This document shows positions 1-25,194 of a stretch of 64,000 nucleotides of DNA, one piece after another. A program made the position numbers and the translations under genes. The notes under the pieces were generated by a model. It saw only the letters and a list, made by a program, of their open reading frames with translations, was not told the DNA's origin and made no database searches. The stretch comes from Hexactinellida sp. DTS-2022 (taxonomy: Eukaryota; Porifera; Hexactinellida): assembly GCA_028753945.1 (NCBI GenBank), contig JAPNXP010000004.1, positions 4,712,001-4,776,000 on the forward strand. Direction: 5' to 3'. The stretch's first letter is position 1. Every line of letters starts with the position of its first letter.

Positions 1-143
1 ATAAGCAAAAAGTGCATAAAGGACTCTAATCAAAAGGTAATAATCAGGTGTATATGTGTACAGGACAGATGAAAATTAGAAATGTCTCTCAGGCCAAACA
101 TTATACAAATTTCCATTGGGCTATCAGGCTACACATAAGGTTG

Positions 144-167
144 TTTCAGGCCGCATGCGGCCTGAAA
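144..167. repeat. 24-bp perfect palindrome
   Basis: Every base pairs around the centre of TTTCAGGCCGCA/TGCGGCCTGAAA. It may be a remnant of an inverted-repeat element end; no target duplication was found. Confidence 0.6.
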
Positions 168-194
168 AACCTAGTTTTCGGAACCCTTTACAGT

Positions 195-1030
195 CAGGGC
201 CGGCTTTAGGCACACGCAACACAAGCAATCGCGTGGGGCGCCATGATTTAGGGGGCGAAAAATTGAGGTCATTTTGTGGAAACTGAATTGAACTGCAATG
301 TTTGGATCCCCATTCTAGTTCTGTTTTATTGCTTTTGAGTAACAATAGCTGTGATTAATTTGTTATTTTCAGAAATTGTTCTTTAAATTTTACAACCTTG
401 ATCAATTTAACATTACTAGCATTGTCCAATAAAAGAGTTAGACAAGTCAAATTCTGACGTTTCACTGACTATTATACCTACTATAGTACCCAAATTATTA
501 GAACTATTGACTAGATTCATCTTCATATTAGTAATTAATTATTAATTATCTATTAGGCCAATGTTAATGGTAACATTGTTTCAGCTCCACACGGAGTCTA
601 TCTGAGGATGCGGGAGGGCGGTATATCATTATCATTATCTCATTATTTGATGACGACATAGGTTAATAATTATCTGAGCAAATTTTCCAATTTGTGAGTG
701 CTTATTAATAAAATACGCAATCGCTGGGTAATAATGATTTTAATTGTTTCTAATTTTGTTAATAACTAATTATGGCTATTTTAATGTGTTTTAATAGTTA
801 ACCCTACCATAAAATTGGCAACGAACAGTGGCCTTACTTTGAAATGTAGGTATAGTAATGGAAATAATGATTATAATGACAATATTCGTGCGGGAGTGAT
901 ACCCTACGCGGGCGGTGGAGCTGAAACAAGATTCCAACTAATAGTGGCCTTAAATTAGTATTTGATGGAAAACGCGGGGCGCCAAGATACCTTTTTGCGT
1001 GGGGCGCCGAAAGAGCTAAAGTCGGCACTG
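195..1030. mobile_element. hAT-type non-autonomous DNA transposon
   Basis: The ends are inverted: CAGGGCCGGCTTTAG on the left and the complement CAGTGCCGACTTTAG on the right. A perfect 8-bp target duplication, TTTACAGT, lies at 187-194 and 1031-1038, as is usual for hAT transposition. The 836-bp interior has no convincing transposase. A second, internal inverted pair (TTGTTTCAGCTCCAC) near 577 and 914 suggests a subterminal hairpin or an older nested insert. Confidence 0.9.
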
Positions 1031-1038
1031 TTTACAGT

Positions 1039-2197
1039 GAATGTACGTTGCATTCTTGTATGGTTCCTGGATTTTGCCTTGAACGCCTCGAATGTGAACA
1101 CTCATGTTTGGCACCATCAGTTCTTGGCCAACAACTTTCCAATGTTTTTAATGACAGAGCAATAATGCAGAAAGCCAACAAAGTGCTCTCCAACAACATA
1201 ATCGTAGGCTGCATTAACGAACACACACAGCAAATTGTTCTTTTTACTGACTTCCTCTGATTCATCAACCAGCACACTAATAAATACGATTACTTCTTTG
1301 GCCTTCTCGCGATGTGTGCTGTGATGTGGTTTCCACAGAGTTCTATTAATTCGTTCTGTTTCCTGTTAATAATATGACATCTGTTTCACCGCGAAAGTAA
1401 ATCAGAGCATTGAATGTTTCACTGGTGTCGGTCTACCTCGCAGAGGCAGATTTTGTCGTCCGCAAATAATAAAAGTATAAATAATCTATAATAATTCCTG
1501 CTTGTTACGCTCCACTTTTTCCTTGTATGCTTTCGAAAGCTTTCTGCAATACGTCTTGTTTCCTCTGACACACTGGTGAAATATGTCTACTGATATGCAG
1601 CAGTCAAGTGAACCGAATGGATATGAGATTACTCCAGTCTGTGATAGGTTTTTGAACAAGCCCACCAGAGACAACTATACATACCGATCAATAGAGACCA
1701 TCTTTAGAATGGCTGTAAGATATCGTGTGATACTGTTCATCACAAATACTTTGTCAGTCACAAGTCGTTTTTTCTTTCCAATCAGTTTCAGTGGTGCTTT
1801 CCATCCTCTCGGCGATTTGAATTTCGATGGATGGATATTTTCAAAGAATCAGTTGGAGAATGAATATCAAATATTTTGACGCTTCCATGCCAATGTCTAC
1901 AAACTCGGAATTATCACTGGCCGAGAGGTCCCGTTGCTATACACCTGCATTCTCTGTCTACTTGCAAAGACGATTACTAGAACTCGGTTGGCCTGTATAG
2001 TTTAGATTTGAATATTTTTTGTGGCTACAGCTAGGCCCAGGCTCAAGACCCTCGCTTGCCACTGTTTGTCCCTGTGCTACATTGGTTCGTTTTGTTTTAC
2101 AGGCAGTTTCTGTACCCAATTTCCTAAGCTCATGAGTCTTATGAGTAATTAACAAAACACCTTTGTCAGAGAAAATAAAATTATCAGAGAAAATTTA
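1039..2197. other. Unclassified intergenic sequence
   Basis: This stretch has a somewhat higher GC content than the surrounding intergenic DNA. It contains small open frames on both strands (about 1048-1260 plus, 1583-1879 plus) that resemble nothing I recognise and have no clear start context or splice structure. It may be an old degraded transposon. No gene is called. Confidence 0.3.
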
Positions 2198-2441
2198 ATA
2201 ACCCTATTTCCCCGACTAAGCGCCGGGTCAATAAAAATGGCATTGGTATGATAAAATTAAAACACATTAGTTGATAACTGGAGTGAAAATTCCATTAATT
2301 TTGGCAACTTCGGTGTGAATACTGTCGGTGAGAACCATTCGAAGACCTAAATATTAGATTCTGGATTTTTCAAAAAAAAATCAGGATAAATTTGACTCAC
2401 GAAAAAATAAGCGCCGGGCGCTTATTTGAAACAATACAGTA
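2198..2441. mobile_element. MITE family P copy
   Basis: The left end matches the P pattern (CCCTATTTCCCCGACTAAGC) and the right end holds the inverted GCGCTTATTTGAAAC. Related copies lie at 24185, 39208 and 54888. Confidence 0.6.
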
Positions 2442-2500
2442 CGCTCGTGCGTATAGTGTGTGACCTGCGGGCCCCTGGAACAGACTGGTTATGTTCTGTA

Positions 2501-2637
2501 CATAGGCGTCGTAACCCGCCCGGGTGCCCGGAAGGGTTGCCCCTATGCTACTAATACTATACCCGGAGTTTACCCGGACATTACCCGGAATTTCCGGGCG
2601 GCCCGAAGGATTGACCTTTGCATTTACGACACCTATG
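2501..2637. mobile_element. GC-rich hAT-like MITE, 137 bp
   Basis: Inverted ends CATAGGCGTCGTAA and CATAGGTGTCGTAA (complement) enclose a GC-rich core with repeated CCCGG units. A perfect 8-bp duplication, GTTCTGTA, lies at 2493-2500 and 2638-2645. The open frame crossing it is incidental. Confidence 0.85.
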
Positions 2638-2645
2638 GTTCTGTA

Positions 2646-3301
2646 GACAGATAGCGTTAATCATGTGACTCGAGAGAACCAGGTCAGACTTCTAAGTGAA
2701 ATAAACTGTACCGCTATAGTGAATGAATAGGTCCCAATATACTGAGACCCTATATGTATACGTATTAGCAATGTATGGTTGGTTATTGTAACATTGGTTT
2801 TTATCATATAATTACCCCCCTGTCAAACCTGTAACTATAACTAGCTTATAACAGATTTATTGGAAAGTGAACTTATTACAAATTTACTTCACTTTGTGTG
2901 AGTGGAGTGAGTCAGTATATGACATTGGACGAACGCGAACGAACTATTGTATGCAAAATAACTTGTCCTAATATTTATTTTTGAGTCAAATAATATTTAG
3001 AGAATTTCACAATCATTTCATTAATTAATTAAGGATGTATTCATGAATCATAATCATAATTCCTACTCTTTAATTAAAACTACTAAACTACTGATATATT
3101 TTGGGGAAATATTTACTGATATAAGGTTCCCTAATTAAGCTCAAACTTTCATTACATACATGGATAAGTGATACACGTTATATATCTATATTTATAAGCT
3201 TTTTTTGTACAAAATTTTTTTCTTCATTTATTTTTACAATTAAAATTTATTAATAATTTTTCACCTTCACATAAGTACCTAACTTTCACTTCACAATCAA
3301 C
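2646..3301. other. Intergenic, nothing recognised
   Basis: AT-rich sequence between the GC-rich MITE and the first small gene. It presumably holds that gene's upstream region. No repeat family of this window was recognised. Confidence 0.4.
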
Positions 3302-3309
3302 TATAAAAG
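3302..3309 (+). promoter_or_regulatory. TATA box of the 3340 gene
   Basis: TATAAAAG lies 31-38 bases before the start codon at 3340. A start of transcription 25-30 bases downstream would leave a 5' UTR of about ten bases. Confidence 0.6.
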
Positions 3310-3339
3310 CATTGATATCATTGGTGTTCAGTAAGTAAG

Positions 3340-3702
3340 ATGTCAAACTTGCAAACAAAACCAACAAATGCCGGATTCCATCCTATTCCGGTTCAACCTA
3401 ATCTCAACAACTCACTTACGCCGAATAATTATTCTTCTTTCATGACTCCTCCACCCTATCAATCCCAAGCAGTATCGAGTGTGACCGTACACACCCCAAT
3501 ACAGTCCCAATATATTATCATCATTCCAGTGTCAACCCTCCAAGAAAAGAACATGGATTCTCAAATTCAACCTCATTCTGGTACAGATACCTCCCTCTAC
3601 CAAATCCCGCCAGACAATTATGTATCATTTTATACTCCGCTACGTCATCCAGTGCAAATAGAAAGCTACGAAAGTAGCTTTGGCAATTCCCCCCATAACT
3701 GA
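3340..3702 (+). CDS. Short P/N/Y/Q-rich protein, member 1 of a three-gene family
   Basis: This is an intronless frame of 120 residues that I do not recognise. The sequence is low in complexity and rich in Pro, Asn, Tyr, Ser and Gln. It carries two versions of a short motif, NNYSSFMTPPPY and DNYVSFYTPL, which matches NNYISYHTPLPL in the genes at 4961 and 12307. The helical C-terminal domain of those two genes is absent, so this is either a short family member or a partial duplicate. No signal peptide or membrane segment is visible. The start is supported by a TATA box just upstream. Function unknown; the family link rests on the repeated motif, the shared intronless structure and proximity. 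Confidence 0.55.
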   Translation: MSNLQTKPTNAGFHPIPVQPNLNNSLTPNNYSSFMTPPPYQSQAVSSVTVHTPIQSQYIIIIPVSTLQEKNMDSQIQPHSGTDTSLYQIPPDNYVSFYTPLRHPVQIESYESSFGNSPHN

Positions 3703-3894
3703 GACAAATATACGTATTATGGCGTAGACACGGTACGACCTTGTGTGTTAAACATAAGTTAGTTTTATGGTCCATACTTCATGAGGTTCCTAGGCCCTGG
3801 ATATTTGCATGTTTTGGTTTCCCCATAAAAACGTGAATTAGTATATTATATCGTCTATTCGAGTACCTTTCTAATTGTATTATTTCTTATTTTC

Positions 3895-4215
3895 TAATTT
3901 GTTTGTTTGTTTGTTTGGAATTGATTAAGCAACTTGACCGAGCTATAGACTTGAAATTTGGTAGGGAGTGGGAGTGGGAGTGGGAGAGTACTGTATCTAG
4001 AAACAAGTTTAAATATCTAAAAAAATATTCACATCTTCCCTCCGAAAAAGTGACAAAACCTTTACCAATTATATTCTAGGTTTGTCCAAGTATGAATTTA
4101 CAGCTAGCATTCAATAAATATTTTAAATTGATTTAATTTCACTATCAGTTAAGTGTGCATTATAGAATGCCTATTTTGAGACTGTAATTTAATAGGGTGA
4201 GAGTAAATTCATGTA
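3895..4215 (+). repeat. Dispersed repeat R1, plus orientation
   Basis: After a GTTTGTTTGTTTG tract it runs through GAATTGATTAAGCAACTTG and CTTGAAATTTGGTAGGGAG to CATTATAGAATGCC. The same order appears inverted at 10545-10747. It may be a Helitron-like or other non-TIR element; the ends are not defined. Confidence 0.6.
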
Positions 4216-4864
4216 TCCTGTCATTAGTTTTGTATTCCGTCTGCTAGTCATACATTCTACAATGCATTGTATCGATTTGATAATCATAAATACCAATCTT
4301 TATAACAGTAGTTACCTGCGGTCCCAAACAGAATAATGGCTTTATGGGTCCACAGGGCTGGACAATTCCTAGTGAGGGTAATTATTATATTTGGAGTCTA
4401 ATCTTAGATTTCCATGTATTTTAAGTTTGAAATATGATTCAAATATCGATGTTTGTACAACAATCAATCAATGGTATTATACAGGACAAGCTCTATAATC
4501 TAGATTCTAGAAAATATCTCTCCTCAAATTAATATTGATATACAAAAAATAACATTTATCAACAACACCGGCAACATCTAGATAAATATTTTCTAATAGA
4601 AATGATGTCTAAATATTGCCCGTATTTATTTTGAAGGAATAGAAATATATAATTTGTACAGCAGCAAAGTACTGGTTCCTTTCAATGCACATAATATGCA
4701 TAATGAAATACGATGCCATTATTGTATATAATTTTCCAATTTAACTTTTTAAGAAATTTTAAGTAATACACAGTCTATTTATAACTTTGTTTAGAAAATA
4801 TAGAACGCACGTATATAAGTGCAACAAAACGTAGTCTACTATCTGCTAAATCTCGCAGTTAATG
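4216..4864. other. Intergenic, nothing recognised
   Basis: AT-rich sequence between repeat R1 and the promoter of the gene at 4961. No coding pattern, tandem array or inverted repeat stands out. Confidence 0.4.
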
Positions 4865-4873
4865 TATATAAAT
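4865..4873 (+). promoter_or_regulatory. Candidate TATA box of the 4961 gene
   Basis: TATATAAAT begins 96 bases before the start codon. A second TATATAAAT at about 4947 is too close to the ATG to serve a usual start. Confidence 0.4.
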
Positions 4874-4960
4874 AGCTTTGTATTAAATATATTTTATTTA
4901 ATATATACTACGGTTTATCTGCAAACTACTTGTCATATTAATTAAATATATAAATTCAAG

Positions 4961-5683
4961 ATGAATTCTCCAAATTTTGTGACCGATTCCTCAATCAGAC
5001 ATACACCCCCTAACTACCATTCAGTACAGCCCACCTGCGTAATCGCCATCATTCCATTTCATGCACAAACTTCCAATCTACAAGATTCAAGAATTATTTA
5101 CAAGCAACCAAACCTCCAATTTCCTCAACCGCTTACCCCAAACCAGGCCCCACCCAACAACTATATCTCATATCATACGCCTCTACCGCTACATGCGCAG
5201 GGACAACTGAATAACTATTACTCCTTTAACACAGAATACCAGCCCCCAGCCCCTCATAGCACTCACGTCTCAGAATGTCCCTACTATATGACAGAGATAG
5301 AGAGTCTAGCTGCGAGAGACAGCAATGTCACCAAACAGCTGATAAGTAGCCTTGCCATGCATAAGGCTCCGGAAGTACTGTCCATTTATTCGAACAGACA
5401 CAACTACAAAAGTCTAGTCAAACAAGCCTTGGCTAAATTCAACCTGGGTACTCTGAAACAGTTCGCGATTAAAGGGATTCGAATGCATGAGAGAACGTTC
5501 AACAGGCTGCTAATTAACTTGGTTGCTAAGTTGCAGAGAGGAGACTCAATCGGTGACTTCGTAGATGTGTTAATAAATAAATGGGAAGCACTGACGGTAG
5601 AAACATCAATCGATAATGTGGTTGACATGACAACAGAAAATTTATATAGGGCTCTAGAGGCTGTCAATTATAAAGTACTGTAG
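4961..5683 (+). CDS. Unknown 240-residue protein, member 2 of a three-gene family
   Basis: Intronless, 240 residues, not recognised. The N-terminal third (about 1-105) is rich in Pro, Asn, Gln and Tyr and contains NNYISYHTPLPLHAQGQ. The C-terminal part (about 106-238) starts at SECPYYMTEIESL, is regular, charged and predicted mainly helical, and looks like a folded domain. No signal peptide or membrane segment is seen. From 5116 to 5667 the DNA matches 12450-13001 without a gap at 546 of 552 positions, but upstream codons, UTRs and the last five codons differ. This fits gene conversion or a moved coding cassette better than a simple gene duplication. Function unknown. Confidence 0.75.
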   Translation: MNSPNFVTDSSIRHTPPNYHSVQPTCVIAIIPFHAQTSNLQDSRIIYKQPNLQFPQPLTPNQAPPNNYISYHTPLPLHAQGQLNNYYSFNTEYQPPAPHSTHVSECPYYMTEIESLAARDSNVTKQLISSLAMHKAPEVLSIYSNRHNYKSLVKQALAKFNLGTLKQFAIKGIRMHERTFNRLLINLVAKLQRGDSIGDFVDVLINKWEALTVETSIDNVVDMTTENLYRALEAVNYKVL

Positions 5684-6558
5684 ATAGGAATTATTAACCA
5701 TATGGCTAATTGGCGAACATGCATGGTCATGTTTTATTAATTACAAACACTATATTTGCATGTTTTTAGAGCCTATATACCCATTTCTATGACACCACTC
5801 ATTTAGGTACTGTCTCTCTTATTGTCTCATTTTATATTATTAATTATATACTACTTACTTGTAAATCATCATTAGAAAGATTGTATTACTTTTCCATTCT
5901 TTTTGGGGTTTTCAGTACATCGATTTCCTATATTTCAACAGACGAAGGCTAGAATTAATATTCGACTAGAAATTCAGTTCCACACGTACACATATAAATT
6001 TAAGTTCTTTCGGGGCGCAATGAAAGTATAGCCAACTTGGCGGCCTCAAAGCATGAGGATGAATTCTGCTACTATGATAAAAATAAACATTGCAGACAAT
6101 TTGAATCCGTTGTTTTGCTGTTGAAGATCAAAACAAAGATTTTATTAAGTCCCTAAAATGCATTTTACTTTATCTTTAGTTTGTGTGATTTTTAACCTTT
6201 ATTTCAGTGGATTATGGCAGGATAAAAATGTGTTTTCAGGTCACTTAAATTAATTGTGAATGAAAGCCCAATAGAACAGTAAATTAGTATCTCCCATTCA
6301 TAACTAAACGCATCAGCTATTAAAGTCAGTCTTCTGATAATGTGTTTGGTTTTAATAAATTCATTTGGTAAGCTAATTTCACTTTCTATAACTAATTTAG
6401 AGTAAGTTACATATAGAATTTTATCAAATTATCATCGTGTAATTATTGAGCCATTGAGCTTTCTATGACGAAACCGAAAGTTATAAATGTGTGGAGTCTC
6501 TTTAGCTTATGTTCCAAAATTAATGTAACTTTAAATTTGACGTATTTCCTCTAACACT
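5684..6558. other. Intergenic with a possible hAT remnant
   Basis: Around 6010-6130, wording such as GGGGCGCAATG and ATTCTGCTACTATGATAAAA resembles the interior of the hAT element at 8961-9317. The copy is too worn to bound. No gene is seen. Confidence 0.3.
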
Positions 6559-7110
6559 TATCTATTGACGAGCCCTTCTGCCTCGGTCGCTTCGCGACGG
6601 TTAATTAAACAGCTACGCCAAGGGTGCTCAAACCGTGGCCCGCGAGACCATTCGCTGTGGCCCGCGGATAATTCGCTTCTTTTCAATTATATATACTCTA
6701 CAAATGCATCAATGTTCCTAGTATGAATACAGTATTTGGTAACTATGGTTTGCATTTACGAATTCTATCAATTATTAGATATTATTAGATATTATTAGAT
6801 TGTCCACTTGCTAGAAAACAAGCTGAGTTCAAAAGAGACATCAAATGATTCGAATCCATTCAAAAGATTATAATTTAATTTTAATTCAATAACTTGAATT
6901 TACAAGTAGAATCCATTGTTAATGCAATATGAGGTCAAATAGTATTGCTTGAAAATTGATTAAACTAAAGCCAGAGGCGATCTATGATTTGTGGCCCGTA
7001 AGGCGGAGCCTAATTTTTAAAGTGGCCCGTAGATTTAAAAGTTTGAGCACCCCTGAGCTACGCGGTCTCGCTTTTTCAATAAACAATAAATATTTATGTT
7101 AATAATATGA
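6559..7110. repeat. GC-hairpin repeat split by a hAT insertion
   Basis: The left part carries GGTCGCTTCGCGACGG and GACGAGCCCTTCTGCC. The same words occur on the other strand at 45710-45835. The hAT element at 6619-7055 sits inside it. Outer boundaries are uncertain. Confidence 0.45.
6619..7055. mobile_element. hAT-type non-autonomous element
   Basis: Ends CAAGGGTGCTCAAA and CAGGGGTGCTCAAA (complement) with subterminal GTGGCCCG repeats. A perfect 8-bp duplication, AGCTACGC, lies at 6611-6618 and 7056-7063. No coding capacity. Confidence 0.9.
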
Positions 7111-7440
7111 AAAGATTGAATTCGTAATCGGCATATTGTTTACCTTTTCAAACATTTGGAAGTCTGTAGGTTCATTTTGAATTTTGAATATTTTGTGTAC
7201 AGATTTTTTGTAAACAACAACAATAAATATTCATATTATAAATTTTTAAATTCGAAATTCGAAATCCGCATACTTCTTTATCTATAATAACATTTGGATG
7301 TTGTTTTTTCTCATAAATAAATGCGGTTTCTATTCCCCTATCACTTTAATACAATCTGGACAAACAAACAACAATCAAGTTTTTAATTAATTTTTTTCCA
7401 TTGCAACGCTGGATTCCATTCTCAAATTGTGTCCTTAGTC

Positions 7441-7587
7441 CAGGGGTTTATCTAGGTACCAGCTAGCATCGGTTTAGGTGCAAAAGTGTTTGCAGTGTGA
7501 TTCCATTTAGGTGTCGGGTTGGCACTTAATTTGGTGCCAGGTCTCTGACAAGATTTTTGGCCATAGAAATTCCTGGATAAATCCCTG
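7441..7587. mobile_element. hAT-like MITE, 147 bp
   Basis: Ends CAGGGGTTTATCTAGG and CAGGGATTTATCCAGG (complement). No target duplication is preserved. A matching right end (CCTAGATAAACCCTTGG) lies near 8566. Confidence 0.65.
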
Positions 7588-7678
7588 TTGGTTGGGTACC
7601 GTACATATTTACCTCCTTAAAATAATGCCTCATCTTTGAATTATACCGTTTATGTATTTTGGCTGATACCTAGTTTAC

Positions 7679-8517
7679 CAGGGTTGCCGTGGATATGGAT
7701 ATATCCATGGAGATCTCCATGGATGGATATCGAGTTTTTGTCATATCCATGGATATTGTGGATATCCATTTCAAATTTAACTTCGAAAATATTTCAAACC
7801 AGGGTTCTAAAAAATGAGTGTGAGAATTAAGTAGCCCTGTTTTTTTTTGTCTACCCCCAATTGGTTTACACGCCTAATTTATTTCATCTAATGAGATTAT
7901 TTACTAGCCTTATTATTCTAAAAGAAGGTGATTTTGACCTTTAGTTACGTCAAAAAGCTCAAAATAGTAACTGAATCGAATTTTTATTTCACCTTTGGAA
8001 ACCTTGCATGTCAAAATATATTTGGGAATGCTAATACAGGAAATGTGTACTTTGTTATATTCCTGAGATTGACCTGTCAATCTCCTTAATTTTTACGTCA
8101 CTCCTGAATATTTACTTGCCATGATTTTTATTCTGGTTTTTTCGTTTATCCTACATGCTATACTTTTAGCTTATTAATTAAGCATAGAGGAGACAATTAA
8201 ATTCAAAAAATTAGTCGCGATGGAATTTCAAAATCTAGGATTTGTCATCGAACTCAATAATCTAGTAGAAGCCATCAATAATGACCCAGAAAGAGATGTT
8301 TTGAGGCTTATAGTGATATTTACGAACTTTGATTATATGGTAGTACAATATTTAGTTGATAAATAATAAATATACATAAATTATAGGACTTAGATCTTCT
8401 GGATATTTTCTTGATATTTGGTGTTAGAAATCTATCAATATTCAATGGATATCCACAAAAATGGTCTGGATATGGATATGGATATGGATGCGATTTTACA
8501 TCTCCACGGCAAGCCTG
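7679..8517. mobile_element. hAT-type element, 839 bp
   Basis: Ends CAGGGTTGCCGTGGA and CAGGCTTGCCGTGGA (complement), followed by GGATAT-rich subterminal repeats on both sides. A perfect 8-bp duplication, TAGTTTAC, lies at 7671-7678 and 8518-8525. It has one short internal frame (8220-8366) but no full transposase. Confidence 0.9.
8220..8366 (+). CDS. Small ORF inside a hAT-type element
   Basis: A 48-codon frame starting MEFQNLGFVIELNNL and ending in VVQYLVDK. Its composition is protein-like, with alternating hydrophobic and charged residues, and the frame is open for about 13 more codons upstream of the ATG. It could be a scrap of a transposase exon, a captured host exon or chance. No known family was recognised. 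Confidence 0.2.
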   Translation: MEFQNLGFVIELNNLVEAINNDPERDVLRLIVIFTNFDYMVVQYLVDK

Positions 8518-8960
8518 TAGTTTACCATAATAATTTATCTTCTATAAAAAAAGTGCCGGCCAAGAAAATCCTAGATAAACCCTTGGTCCTTAACAATCAA
8601 GTAACTCTCTTTCGACTCCATTCAGCTATCTGAGTATAATTATACGCATACCGACCCTCTAAAGCGTGATTTGATAAAATTATTCGATATTTATGGTAAA
8701 TAACGGTAAATCAAAAATAATTTTATCAGATTTTTTATAAGAGCGTAATTGCCAACGTAATCGCGAGCATGCAAAATTATTGAGGAATAATTTTTGAAAT
8801 TATTAGTCAAGACAAACATAACATGATTTCTATTAAGACTACTTTTTCAGAACGTCGAATGAATGATATTACGTACGTATTACCATTTTCATATGAGGTA
8901 GTGTTTAATTAAATAATCTACAAATTGAACTCCAAATACAGTTAAATTATTGAAATAGAG

Positions 8961-9317
8961 CAGGGGTGGGCAAAAGGTTCTGTTTCGGGCCGTTGTGAAA
9001 TTTTAGGCTAACTTAGCGGGCCGCAAAAATTTGATGGTATATTCTGCTACTATTATACATTTAAAGTTTAGTTATAAACTATTAATCACGAACTATTCAT
9101 TGTAGTAGGTGACAATAGATTACAAATTTAACATGTCTGAACACTAAGTATTAACCGTGTACCGAAATTGTTATCTTTCATGTGATGCGTGCGCATCAGC
9201 TATGAGGGATTGATTCTAAAGTGCTATGTAAAGTTCAGCGGGCCGCATTCAGTATGATTTGAAACAACTCTCGCGGGCCGCATAAATTTCTCCAGCGGGC
9301 CGCACTTTGCCCACCTG
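8961..9317. mobile_element. hAT-type MITE with GCGGGCCGC subterminal repeats
   Basis: Ends CAGGGGTGGGCAA and CAGGTGGGCAA (complement), the wording common to hAT MITEs in many animals. Flanks share TGAAATAGAG at 8951-8960 and 9318-9327, which contains the 8-bp duplication. Confidence 0.85.
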
Positions 9318-9639
9318 TGAAATAGAGGATATCCAAACTGCAAACATATATTATTTCAATTTCATTACTTCTATATTTTCTGAATATTGCATGTATTATA
9401 TTGTTATGAACAGGGTCGTAGCAGCCAGATTCTAATTGGTCAGGTTGAAATTTCCTAGTCATTCCAAACATGCTATATTATTTTGCTAAATACGTAGTAA
9501 CATGTTCATTTAACAAAATTGGTCCGAGGGACCATTTTTGTCAAATGAAGTTGCTAGCAATTATTATCTAAAATAATACCTTGGTTACAGAGGAATGTAG
9601 TCACATTTTATTGTTAAATTTGAGATATTATCTATACAA

Positions 9640-9704
9640 GCTGCTCGTCCGCGCTACGCGCGTTCTTACAACTTGCACTCGGGCCTGTGGCCCTCGCTTG
9701 TATT
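9640..9704 (+). repeat. Direct repeat pair, copy 1
   Basis: Contains CTACGCGCGTTCTTACAACTT followed by a Gly/Cys-rich-looking CTCGGGCC hairpin. A second copy lies at 10065-10130 in the same orientation. It may be the end of a larger element. Confidence 0.45.
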
Positions 9705-10064
9705 CATGGCAAATACCTTTTCAAATGTTATGCCAGTTGTATTTAAATACTGTGGAATGTAACGGAAATTTAACGAAAATTATACATCCCTTTCCTTACG
9801 TCAATTTTTTGCCATTTTGGAATAAAAACTACGGTCTGTGACATTCGTAATCCTTCTCCCCCCTCGAAAGCATTACGTAACGTTCGAAAGCCTCATACGC
9901 AGGTTAATTATATTACGGGAAATCTTTTAGGAATTATAATAGCTGGCCGCTAGCCTATGTACAAATGACCGTTGTATAGAGTAACCTTTAGCAGATTCTA
10001 CTATACAGTATGTAGGTAGCAGATCCCTACCTTATTGAGCTGGGTCCCCTAAGAAGTATATTTA

Positions 10065-10130
10065 AGCTGATCGACCGCACTACGCGCGTTCTCACAACTT
10101 ATTCTCGAGCCTTCGGTTCTCGCGTGTATT
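10065..10130 (+). repeat. Direct repeat pair, copy 2
   Basis: Contains CTACGCGCGTTCTCACAACTT and CTCGAGCCTTCGGTTCTCGC, paralleling 9640-9704 with clear divergence. The interval between the copies shows no gene. Confidence 0.45.
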
Positions 10131-10544
10131 TACAACAATTTGATTCATTAATTAGATTAGACAAATTTGTTACTTCAGAAAGATAGTAAACAGCTCAAAC
10201 TTTTAGACTAAATCATAATAATATATGCTCATGATTCTCGGTAAATTAATACGTTAATTCTTCCTAAAAAAGTCATTGATACGAAAATTATTCTTAACTG
10301 ACAAATATATCTTTTTCGGGTTTATGAGTAGCAAATCTGAAATCAAATTGATTAATTAATCAAAAGTTTGGAAATGAAGATTTTATAAGGTGGAATGAAA
10401 GGTTTTAGTTTAACTTTTACTAAATAGACTATTTATGCGATTAATGGGACTATTAAAGTACTAAATTTATTAGTTAAATGTATTGACCCAGAATTATTTG
10501 TGTTTATTTTTTCAGCCAATTAAATTGCAGTCTCAGTTGGGCTT

Positions 10545-10747
10545 TCTATAATGCATACACTTAACAGCTGATAGTTTTGTCACCTTTTGAGAGGGAAGAT
10601 ATGAATATTTTTCTTAGATATTAGAACTTGTTCCTAGATACACTATTTCCCAACTCCCTGCCAAATTTCAAGCCTGTAGCTCTTACCAGTTCCTCAATCA
10701 ATTCTGAACAAACAAACAAAAACAAAAAAAATCATTGTGATTTAATA
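10545..10747 (-). repeat. Dispersed repeat R1, minus orientation
   Basis: On the minus strand it reads ATTAAATCACAATGATTTTT, a GTTTG tract, GAATTGATTGAGGAACTGG, then GAAATTTGGCAGGGAGTTGG, as at 3895. It was later split by the foldback element that starts at 10756. Confidence 0.6.
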
Positions 10748-10755
10748 TATAAGAT

Positions 10756-11314
10756 GGGGCGCATGCTTTTGTCCGAATTTCTAGTATGCATTTGTCCGAA
10801 ATTTTGGAGTATGCATTTGTCCGAATTTGTTGTATGCATTTGTCCGACTGGAGTATGCATTTGTCCGAATTTTGTTGTATGCATTTGTCCGACAGAAGTA
10901 AGCATTTGTCATTGAGTTTTTATGGATCATTGATAAAACACTCGCATTTCTAAGTGTGATTTTATGGTTTATTGTTAAAACGCACGCATTTCTAAGTGCG
11001 TATATATGATTTCGGGGGAAAGCGCGCCCTTTTTAAGCGTGTGGGTATGGTGCCCTGGTGGAAAATCTCAGTGTCTACGTGATCATTGGGAAAACACCGA
11101 CTTTCTAAGTGCCTTGTATTGATTATTGATAAAACACTCGCATTTCTAAGTGTCTTAGTGACAAAATATCATATGAATGACAAATGCTTACATCAATGTA
11201 AATTCGGACAAATGCATACTCCAGTCGGACAAATGCATACGTCAGTCGGACAGATGCATACTTCAAAATTCGGACAAATGAATACTACAAAATTCGGACA
11301 AATGCAGCTTCCCC
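10756..11314. mobile_element. Foldback element with tandem-repeat arms and 8-bp target duplication
   Basis: The left arm holds about six units of GTATGCATTTGTCCGAATTT type. The right arm holds the same units inverted. The centre carries four units of AAAACACTCGCATTTCTAAG type. The ends are GGGGCGCATGC and GGGGAAGCTGC (complement). A perfect duplication, TATAAGAT, lies at 10748-10755 and 11315-11322. The 8-bp length suggests a hAT-like or similar transposase acting in trans. The frames 10628-10915 and 11086-11319 are only translations of the repeats. Confidence 0.85.
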
Positions 11315-11588
11315 TATAAGATAGTGTTCCGAGTTGAGATATATATATGGATTTTAAATTTGTTGCTAAAATGAAATTGAATTAAGTTTAAAGTTTTGAT
11401 TTTAGTTTTCAAAAATATTGGAATATATGTAATAAGTAGAGTGAATCTATTTGAATATCATATCATCTTTTTACTAATGAGTAACAATTGATAATTATAA
11501 TTGATTAATTATCAATAGTTTGCTATTTAATTAAGCATTCATTCTTTATTAATTATCCCAGGGAACTTAATGGACATGTATTGCATTA

Positions 11589-11744
11589 CAGTAGATGTCG
11601 GATATAAGCATACCAGTTATAAGAACATATCGGATATAAGAACACTATGTGGAAAACGGTTGCCATATACTCTCTATAATTTATGTCGGTTATAAGCACA
11701 TTAAGTGCAGTTCCCGACGATGTGCTTATAACCGGCATCCACTG
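11589..11744. mobile_element. MITE-D
   Basis: Both ends match family D (GTAGATGTCGGATATAAGCA, GGCATCCACTG) and TA flanks each side. Confidence 0.85.
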
Positions 11745-12242
11745 TATTTTCCGAGAGCCCTACCTTAGCTAAGACAAGTAACAAAGTAAATTAATTAACA
11801 AAGCTTATCCAGTAATAGCTGTGTACGTGTTGTTAATAAATTTATTTTGAATTTATTTTCTAGATTGTCCTTATTTAAATAATAAATAAACGGTTATTAT
11901 ATTTGAAGAACTGTTGGTATATATGTAATTCCTTTTGTTAAACACGTTTCGTATTTTATTTTATTTAAAAAAGAGAAGAAATTCTCTGAATCGTGCTCCT
12001 TTAATCTGGTAAGTCTAAAACGCATAACAAAATATTTGCTCATCGAATATTAAATAAAAAACTAACGGTTTGAAATATAATATTTCAATGAGAATGGGGG
12101 CTATTTTATCAACAATAATATTCGAAAATTTCATTTTTTGCTCATTGAAATTGAAGTCTATTATTTCTCACCCCAACTGACAACCTACGTTAAGATTTAA
12201 TTAAGTCCTTAATTACTTCATAAGTTCATAGGTAAGTTTAAG
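11745..12242. other. Intergenic, nothing recognised
   Basis: AT-rich sequence upstream of the gene at 12307; presumably holds its upstream control region. No repeat family was recognised. Confidence 0.4.
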
Positions 12243-12250
12243 TATAAATA
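12243..12250 (+). promoter_or_regulatory. TATA box of the 12307 gene
   Basis: TATAAATA lies 57-64 bases before the start codon, leaving room for a 5' UTR of about 30 bases. Confidence 0.6.
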
Positions 12251-12306
12251 GGGTATTGTCAACTTTATACATTATACAAAATCACATTCAGATCAACTAA
12301 AACAAA

Positions 12307-13059
12307 ATGCAATCCAAACATGATGAGACTGATGCCTGTGAGTGGCAGACCAAGTCTAGCAATTATTCATCTCACAATCAATTTAATAACTACAGTTCAA
12401 TCTCCGTAAATTCCACACTCGTATTTCCGCAAACAATTGCTTCCCTTTCCCAATTTCCTCAACCGCTTACCCCAAACCTGGCCCCACCCAACAACTATAT
12501 CTCATACTATACGCCTCTACCGCTACATGCGCAGGGACAACTGAATAACTATTACTCCTTTAACACAGAATACCAGCCCCCAGCCCCTCATAGCACTCAC
12601 GTCTCAGAATGTCCCTACTATATGACAGAGATAGAGAGTCTAGCTGCGAGAGACAGCAATGTCACCAAACAGCTGATAAGTAGCCTTGCCATGCATAAGG
12701 CTCCGGAAGTACTGTCCATTTATTCGAACAGACACAACTACAAAAGTCTAGTCAAACAAGCCTTGGTTAAATTCAACCTGGGTACTCTGAAACAGTTCGC
12801 GATTAAAGGGATTCGAATGCATGAGAGAACGTTCAACAGGCTGCTAATTAACTTGGTTGCTAAGTTGCAGAGAGGAGACTCAATCGATGACTTCGTAGAT
12901 GTGTTAATAAATAAATGGGGAGCACTGACGGTAGAAACATCAATCGATAATGTGGTTGACATGACAACAGAAAATTTATATAGGGCTCTAGAGGCTGTCA
13001 ACTTTAGTGTAATTGTGAACGATGATCCGTTTTGCGAACTGACGTCGATGCTCTATTAA
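12307..13059 (+). CDS. Unknown 250-residue protein, member 3 of a three-gene family
   Basis: Intronless, 250 residues, not recognised. Residues 1-48 are unrelated to the gene at 4961. Residues 49-231 match it at all but five sites (Q/L, H/Y, A/V, G/D, E/G), and the C-terminal tail of about 19 residues (NFSVIVNDDPFCEL and on) is again different. The shared part holds a Pro/Asn/Tyr-rich segment and a helical domain starting at SECPYYMTEIESL. The matching DNA is 12450-13001, with no gap and six differences, five of them changing the residue. Its own TATA box and unlike flanks show it is not a plain tandem duplicate. Function unknown; no signal peptide or membrane segment. Confidence 0.75.
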   Translation: MQSKHDETDACEWQTKSSNYSSHNQFNNYSSISVNSTLVFPQTIASLSQFPQPLTPNLAPPNNYISYYTPLPLHAQGQLNNYYSFNTEYQPPAPHSTHVSECPYYMTEIESLAARDSNVTKQLISSLAMHKAPEVLSIYSNRHNYKSLVKQALVKFNLGTLKQFAIKGIRMHERTFNRLLINLVAKLQRGDSIDDFVDVLINKWGALTVETSIDNVVDMTTENLYRALEAVNFSVIVNDDPFCELTSMLY

Positions 13060-13153
13060 ATTTATTTTGATTTCATGTTTGATTTATTATTTAGAGCTCA
13101 TACCACTTCTATTAGTAATATACTTTTTGTTTCTGTCCATAATTTTCTATATA

Positions 13154-13653
13154 CAGTGCAACCTCTATAAGTGGGGTCTCTATAAATGGGGAACCTCCAT
13201 AAGTGGGGAATTTTTTTACCATATTCGTATATATCCATACAAATGAACCTCTATAAGCGGGGAAGTGGGGAATGGGGGACCATAAATTTCAAGGAGTTTT
13301 TATCTCCATACAAAACAACCTCCATAAATGGGGGGAATGGACAAATCCTAACATGATTCTTATAAAATAATACAATATTTCCAATAAATCGACTCAAAAG
13401 TTCTACAGAAAAAATATTTTCGATTGATCTACTCTGATGTTTTTAGAAGAAATCACCTAGTGTAGATCAGCAGTTAACTAAATTGTCATAATATACAAAT
13501 AAGAACTAGAACGTGCATTAATGTGTGTGTTATATGAATATTTTGTATAATATAGCATATATAATGTTTTTCCAATTGAATTTTATAACCGGGGAATGGG
13601 GGGCAATTGAAATTTTCCCCGTCCCAGCTCCCCCACTTATAGAGGTTCCACTG
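13154..13653. mobile_element. MITE-J, 500 bp
   Basis: Ends CAGTGCAACCTCTATAAG and CAGTGGAACCTCTATAAG (complement) flanked by TA. The arms repeat CTATAAATGGGG-type units. Confidence 0.8.
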
Positions 13654-13730
13654 TATTTCTTAATTCTTCACATTTAAATTTTTTCAAAGAATTAAAATCT
13701 AATACTACTAATAAAAGAAATAACTGATAT

Positions 13731-13885
13731 GTAGACCGTCTATTTCTAGACCAGGTTTTCTTACATATATAATAGTATTACCCTTAGATGGCAGGGCTTT
13801 TGGTCTGCAGAATTTACAGACGGTCTACAAATTTTTGGCTTATTTGTATGGGCTTTATAGACCGTCTAGAAATAGACCGTCTACA
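13731..13885. mobile_element. Inverted-repeat element (GTAGACCGTCTATTTCTAGA)
   Basis: Both ends carry GTAGACCGTCTATTTCTAGA in opposite orientation, with further internal copies of AGACGGTCTA. A single end recurs near 21775. Confidence 0.7.
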
Positions 13886-14716
13886 TAGAAGGATGCTCAA
13901 TATAAAAACGATTCTAGTTACAATTATTTACTTTGGATAGGATAACTCTTTTAATTAATGGATTTAAATATGGCTATTCATATTTCAATAAGATCGTATT
14001 ACGTACCTATTATTTCTGAATAAACTTGATTCTCTTCAAGAATCATGGGTCACAACATCTCAAAATATTTAAGAAAAAACTTCTTTTTATGTTAAAACTT
14101 GAAAAAAAAATACACGTTAGATATTATAATTAGATATTTGTTCCATCAAATAAGTTCATGATTTATTTGATTTCGTGATTTAATTTCAAGATTAATTGTG
14201 GAGAATTTTTGAATAACAGTAATTAATATTGACTTTAAAAGAGGTTGTTATTTAAAATCAAATTTAAACTGCAGGGGATTAATTAAAATGCAAATAATAA
14301 ATATGTATTTTTTTTTAATAGACTAAATAAAAGTTCTGACAAAATTACAAAATGATAGTCGAAATTTTAATTACGTCAAAAGTTTATTATAATTCTAATC
14401 CGATTCAAATTCATTAACCTATCAACTATAATTTAGCTAGCAAATATGCAAATTAGCTCGTGATAGTGTAGGTATTACTCATTCACCCAATTTTATACAA
14501 AACTTCAATTAATTGAATATACGGTGGATTCTAGTACATTTATATTTAGTTCCTATTAACTAATTGGAATGACTTTTCAATTAAGAGACACAAAAAATTA
14601 TGAATTATCTAATTGGTCGACACAAAAAGAAACTTAGAAATTTCCATAAACAAAATATTTTCGTGCGAGGCAACCTGAAAACTTTATTAAACCGAACTAG
14701 TTCAATTAAAGATGTA
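13886..14716. other. AT-rich intergenic or intronic sequence
   Basis: Searched for upstream DHX16 exons (DEAH box, P-loop) and none was found. No repeat was recognised. Confidence 0.4.
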
Positions 14717-14879
14717 CAGTAGAACCTCGTTAGTAAGAACACCAGGAGACCGTCAAAATGCGTTCGCCTTACCAGAATTCGTACAAACCAATATCATTTG
14801 TATTTGAAAAAGCTTTGCAGGGGACTGAAATAGTGTCATATTAACCGGAATTTCGTATTCGCATTAACGATGTTGTATT
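14717..14879. mobile_element. MITE-A, right end worn
   Basis: Starts CAGTAGAACCTCGTTAGTAA; the right end is only partly preserved (CATTAACGATG). Confidence 0.65.
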
Positions 14880-15744
14880 GTGGTTTTACAAAGTTGGTTT
14901 ATAAATTCGTACGTACTAACTGCCCTAAACTTTGGTGATACAAGTGATCTCTGAAAAATTCTCTATTTGTACGGTTATAGGAAATATTTTATTATTATAA
15001 TAAATCTTACCTTTAAATAATATGATTCCAATCAACTTAAAATTCTTAAATCAATCTAATTTATAATTATTTTTTATAACTTATATTTATTTTCTCTTCA
15101 TTTATACAATTTTTTCATTATTTTAACTTAAAAAGTAGAAATTGTTCTAATTAATGCCACGTATTTGATTCGTCTAAATTATATAGACACAGCAATACCA
15201 AACCCATCAAGGTAAGCAAACTTCAAATTTGTAAGTATTTTCTCTACCAATGATAGCGGTTTTGTTACTACATGGGAAATAGTATAACATGAATTAATCA
15301 ATAGACTGGTCAGTCACCACACTATAAGTTAACATATGGGCTTTAAAGTAGAACTTTATTTTGCTTCAGTAATTTTACTTTACAATAATTGAATTACTTA
15401 GGGGTTGATATTGGATATTAATCAATTTATACGTATTAACTTTCTACTTTCTTAAATTGCTTACATTTGGAGCAATATTGTTTAATTTCTATTAAATTAT
15501 AAATTCGCAATTTCCATTAAAGGCTTAATTTTGATTTATAATGTTATAAGGAAGAATGCTTGGGAGTCAAATTGCTAATTATTTCTTGTATAATAAAATA
15601 TCACTTTTCTACAATTAATTTTTTAAAGGGTTGTACATGTATACCACATTATACTCAGTTTTTAATTTTTACTGTGTATTTCTATCATTTATAAACAGTC
15701 TATAAATAACTATATGTTCATTAACTAATATTACTATTCCATAG
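14880..15744. other. Intron-like sequence before the first visible DHX16 exon
   Basis: Ends in an acceptor AG just before 15745. The coding sequence upstream of this splice site, which should hold the P-loop and DEAH motifs, is not found here or elsewhere in the window. Confidence 0.5.

Positions 15745-25194
<9,450 letters not shown>

Follow-up and report, generated by a model that had tools for sequence, protein, structure and literature searches.

We analyzed a 64,000-nucleotide (nt) stretch of the genome of the hexactinellid sponge Hexactinellida sp. DTS-2022 (GenBank assembly GCA_028753945.1, contig JAPNXP010000004.1, positions 4,712,001 to 4,776,000 of the forward strand), referred to here as the window. 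Two predicted genes in it, B and C, share a 552-base-pair (bp) block of coding sequence that is almost identical between them and is set between coding ends and flanks that do not align. Since silent sites in the block are almost unchanged, the likeness reflects recent copying and not conservation. The best reading is ectopic gene conversion between tandem same-strand paralogs, to which we assign roughly an even chance; partial duplication captured by gene C ranks close behind conversion as a serious alternative. Both genes, together with a smaller open reading frame (ORF), ORF A, are nested on the host strand within one intron of a DHX16-like splicing-helicase gene. The event is of an ordinary, well-known kind of gene evolution, and the nested setting in a single intron adds to its interest.

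A recently copied block inside two coding frames

Gene B (4961..5683, + strand) is a 240-amino-acid open frame whose first ~52 codons are unique, followed by the block, which starts at codon 52/53, and a tail of 4 codons before the stop. Gene C (12307..13059, + strand) is a 250-amino-acid open frame in which the unique part covers the first ~48 codons, the block starts at codon 48/49, and the tail is 18 codons long. The copies of the block lie at 5116..5667 in gene B and 12450..13001 in gene C, both on the + strand and 7,334 bp apart start to start. A preliminary description of the window had reported a gap-free match at 546 of 552 sites lying wholly within the coding frames of two intronless genes. 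Our ungapped realignment returns the same count (98.9%), and both edges of the block fall inside the open frames of B and C in the same frame; intronless here means that the open frame is uninterrupted. The codon usage of the block is that of coding sequence, with none of 3000 noncoding segments (≤150 nt) scoring equally high. Searches of the 112-Mb genome with the block DNA find these two places only, and searches with protein C find only the B and C places. In the same genome the ascidian spliced-leader sequence has a single occurrence, which makes Ciona an unlikely source, and the rRNA region appears sponge-like on reading. A search with COX1 yields no match, so a mitochondrial contig is probably absent from the sequences searched.

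The six differences between the copies comprise one silent change (5173 in B/12507 in C) and five that alter the protein, which are Q>L (5145/12479), H>Y (5174/12508), A>V (5433/12767), G>D (5553/12887), and E>G (5586/12920). Over 183 whole codons this gives a silent divergence (dS) of ~0.007 and an amino-acid changing divergence (dN) of ~0.012. Five amino-acid changes against a single silent one agree with neutral evolution (P 0.52). Six changes are a small sample, and they speak only mildly against strong purifying selection after the copying event (P 0.028 at an omega of 0.2).

Block edges and flanks

Beyond both edges of the block, identity between B and C is about that expected by chance. 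Over seven ungapped 20-nt steps outward, 28 of 140 sites agree to the left of the block and 42 of 140 to its right. In the right-hand step nearest the block 10 of 20 sites are the same, and the proteins there read NYKVL* versus NFSVIVN...; the five residues NYKVL/NFSVI are weakly alike (shuffle p 0.01). Similarity of the DNA flanks was judged by dinucleotide shuffling and is given as the fraction of 200 shuffles that reach the observed score. We find no significant similarity between B and C in the 5′ flanks (0.73), the unique coding DNA (0.11), the two taken together (0.17), or the 3′ flanks (0.16). Across A, B, and C, ten tests of flanking DNA all give fractions above 0.05, the lowest being that of the A and C 3′ flanks (0.065). 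The identity counts and shuffles thus confirm that upstream regions, 5′ coding ends, last codons, and 3′ flanks differ between the genes, as had been described.

These flanks bear on three alternative explanations. A tandem duplication of the whole gene, with the flanks on both sides later lost or replaced, would fit the tandem same-strand arrangement, but a divergence of ~1% should have left the flanks alignable and they do not align, which makes this history most improbable. The preliminary description had favored recent gene conversion or a movable coding cassette over ordinary tandem duplication. Its rejection of the latter is upheld by near-identical silent sites in the block beside flanks that cannot be aligned. 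The same two observations bear out that a coding segment was recently copied, and gene conversion remains a plausible and preferred account of the copying.

An assembly artefact, an objection that the preliminary description itself had raised, would mean that a haplotype was duplicated in error or that a single segment was placed at two positions. The unique N-terminal coding parts of B (4961..5115, + strand) and C (12307..12449, + strand) each match themselves alone in the genome, as protein and, with the 5′ flank, as DNA. The C tail with the next ~76 bp is covered by itself alone among the 40 matches scored of 271 candidates. Given flanks that are not repeated, two frames that are both open with differing flanks, and six differences between the copies, we judge an artefact very unlikely.

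A mobile or retroposed coding cassette could account for the sharp edges, for a 4-bp direct repeat (CTTT) at the edges of the C copy, and for the nearness of a high-copy repeat, which starts ~135 bp downstream of the block in C and has 271 candidate matches, of which 40 were scored, itself among them. However, there are just two copies, linked 7.3 kb apart on one strand, and the neighboring repeat lies outside the block. We saw neither terminal repeats nor a poly-A tract at the block edges, which were read by eye in the sequence. The short direct repeats mean little because a 5-bp one, CAATT, occurs equally at the B edges. The proposal of a movable cassette therefore did not hold up, and we consider it scarcely probable.

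Just downstream of gene C (13136-13656) is the high-copy dispersed repeat, made of AACCTCTATAAGTGGGG units with inverted arms. Between B and C (10763-11306), a TGCATTTGTCCGAATTT-like unit forms two arrays in inverted orientation, with arms that match perfectly over 41 nt.

A probable relative upstream of gene B

ORF A (3340..3702, + strand) is a 120-amino-acid frame that has two copies of a PxNYxSxxTP-like motif and lacks the predicted helical region that B and C have toward the C-terminus. The motif occurs once each in B and C, inside the block. By shuffling, A resembles residues 1-110 of B (p 0.001) and residues 1-106 of C (p 0.014), with the similarity coming mostly from the motif in the block. 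On this sequence resemblance A is probably related to B and C in their N-terminal part, and its proximity suggests a tandem family. The preliminary description mentioned neither this adjoining frame nor the helicase intron in which the genes lie.

In a scan of 40 kb upstream together with window positions 1-20000, the motif is confined to A, B, and C. When these three proteins were searched against the entire window by tblastn, matches outside their own frames were weak (best E 0.19), and genome searches with proteins C and A and with the N-termini of B and C yield no further member. One hit of A on a different contig, interrupted by two stops and with an E of 1.19, was dismissed as chance. 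Separately, a 177-amino-acid frame at L012:3933-4466 consists largely of two near-identical ~50-residue repeats.

Conversion or captured duplication

Under the preferred reading, B and C would belong to a small family of short genes arranged in tandem within the helicase intron. Gene C would already have existed, complete with a promoter, N-terminus, and tail of its own, before ectopic gene conversion replaced its C-terminal region with B sequence (or that of B with C sequence), halting where homology ended on each side. The outcome might then be that one C-terminal part is paired with two different promoters and N-termini. Conversion requires that C was a paralogue with a homologous C-terminal region. 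This reading is backed by near-identical silent sites beside unalignable flanks, and by the shared strand, frame, and intron, the 7,334-bp spacing, and the similar length of unique coding sequence ahead of the block (155 nt in B, 143 nt in C). Linkage and same orientation favor conversion and are not required for it. The weak likeness just right of the block (five residues, p 0.01) also counts for conversion. As pattern matches only, TATA-like sites are present upstream of each frame: TATATAA at -149, -96, and -14 from the ATG of B, TATAAAT at -64 from that of C, and TATAAAA at -38 upstream of A.

The N-terminal part of C was probably already coding before the copying, because none of 1340 overlapping open intron segments scores as high in amino-acid composition as its first 48 residues, the reference being the composition of A and the B N-terminus. 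The block divergence of ~1% leaves little time for this part to have become coding later.

Several observations weigh against conversion. Between the unique N-termini of B and C, though similar in amino-acid composition, neither a local (p 0.86) nor a global (p 0.066) alignment shows significant homology, which leaves the two genes as only putative paralogs beyond the block. Extension of the A match into the unique part of B is not significant (p 0.098), and there is no extension into that of C. Identity drops totally at the left edge, with 2 of 20 sites the same in the first 20-nt step. Of 423 overlapping segments taken from ten other frames in the window, 36 score as high in composition as the C N-terminus; the composition signal is thus not specific. 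Codon usage opposes it as well: the N-terminus of C lies within the noncoding range (fraction 0.156), and neither the N-terminus of B (0.378) nor A (0.150) stands out from noncoding sequence, which weakens the claim of coding status for all three. The GC content (guanine plus cytosine) of the N-termini is ordinary (0.21 to 0.23 of intron windows). Finally, the 552-bp block exceeds the 50-200 nt typical of surviving Caenorhabditis conversion tracts, although it falls within the 12-2,958 tract range of one survey (both reported in PMC3966223).

The leading alternative is partial (internal) duplication, in which templated insertion during break repair, for example, placed a copy of a 552-bp piece of one gene 7.3 kb from its source, within a gene or other sequence lacking the domain, and local sequence completed the frame to give a chimeric-looking duplicate. 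We hold this to be quite possible, at somewhat less than an even chance. Both copies carry unique coding sequence, the block edges are abrupt, and the unique coding ends (both N-termini, and the C tail among the 40 of 271 candidates scored) have no second place in the genome. Such ends without a donor are a sign of partial duplication with recruitment as described in PMC3449122, and PMC3966223 includes a warning that the pattern read as conversion can also be an incomplete duplication. A recipient without the domain is conceivable, since the probable relative A lacks the C-terminal part. A stretch of 48 open codons is found at 4.7% of intron positions, and the codon usage of the C N-terminus is in the noncoding range. 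Capture nevertheless requires that the piece inserted in the same orientation, kept the frame at each of its ends, and came to lie downstream of a TATA-like site. It is also disfavored by the amino-acid composition of the C N-terminus, which is unlike translated intron among the overlapping segments scored, and by the slight likeness of the tails.

Predicted proteins

Neither B nor C has a match in Pfam, C has none in PDB, and PHROGs returns one chance-level match for B (E 0.065). Foldseek gives no match at E ≤ 0.001. The predicted folds are of a confidence too low for use, with predicted local distance difference test (pLDDT) scores of 34 and 55; in C, the models place helices only in a stretch of ~130 residues that ends at the tail. 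Each protein may consist of a flexible N-terminal region, rich in P, N, Q, S, T, and Y, joined to a helical C-terminal part. Our best guess is that the products of B and C are a lineage-specific protein whose flexible N-terminus varies and whose helical part is kept.

Comparison with known systems

The closest parallel is C. elegans col-12/col-13, where ORFs 99.5% identical with extremely low flank similarity were read as conversion, a reading backed by orthologues in two relatives (PMC3966223). As with B and C, these are neighboring tandem genes with ~99% identity, unrelated flanks, and different leader sequences. The identical stretch of col-12/col-13, however, is the ORF including its intron, whereas the block of B and C is internal to the frames. 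Divergent promoters and upstream sequences over one exon sequence, likewise read as conversion, are described for the central Mup genes of mouse (PMC4777540); B and C similarly share one sequence beneath divergent upstream regions, but as two copies and not as a multi-gene cluster. Concerted evolution of tandem single-exon genes has been described for ctenophore photoproteins (PMC3570280).

Chimeric duplicates and partial duplicates with recruitment are reported as common in worm and fly, where partial and chimeric classes make up 56-86% of duplicates (PMC3449122). B and C resemble these in that each copy has unique coding ends without a donor in the genome. They differ in that both ends of both copies are different, and in that the composition of the C start speaks for coding sequence that existed beforehand, a point on which codon usage does not agree.

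As a clean and young case of one coding module in two genes with different upstream regions and N-termini, the locus could help tell gene conversion from partial duplication, given sequence from another individual or a relative. A further idea, which we think unlikely, is that the helicase intron acts as a nursery for a young family of orphan genes, in which the helical domain is repeatedly copied so as to follow different promoters and N-termini. If true, new proteins would arise here through the local exchange of domains instead of the duplication of whole genes.

Host intron setting

Genes nested in the introns of host genes are a known arrangement. A, B, and C resemble such genes as small frames with TATA-like sites inside an intron; they differ in being three same-strand frames, as predicted genes, in one DHX16-like intron. 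The host intron is 17,449 bp long, begins 1,705 bases before the window, and occupies window positions 1..15744 (+ strand). Its ends are GT-AG, and the junctions AG/GTATAT and CATAG/GTCAG join in frame.

The flanking exons identify the host as a DEAH-box helicase gene. The exon just upstream of the window (L010:8042-8295) has human DHX16 as its best PDB match (E 8.2e-43). DHX16 is also the best PDB match of the next exon (15745..16123, + strand; E 5e-57), delimited by reading of the junction with its 3′ end set by eye at the donor-like AAG/GTTAAA, and of a further exon at 23483-23914 (E 1.2e-60). Between these last two exons, at 20259-21302, there is a frame that appears tetraspanin-like on reading its translation and that contains a short tandem repeat, NMTVAP.

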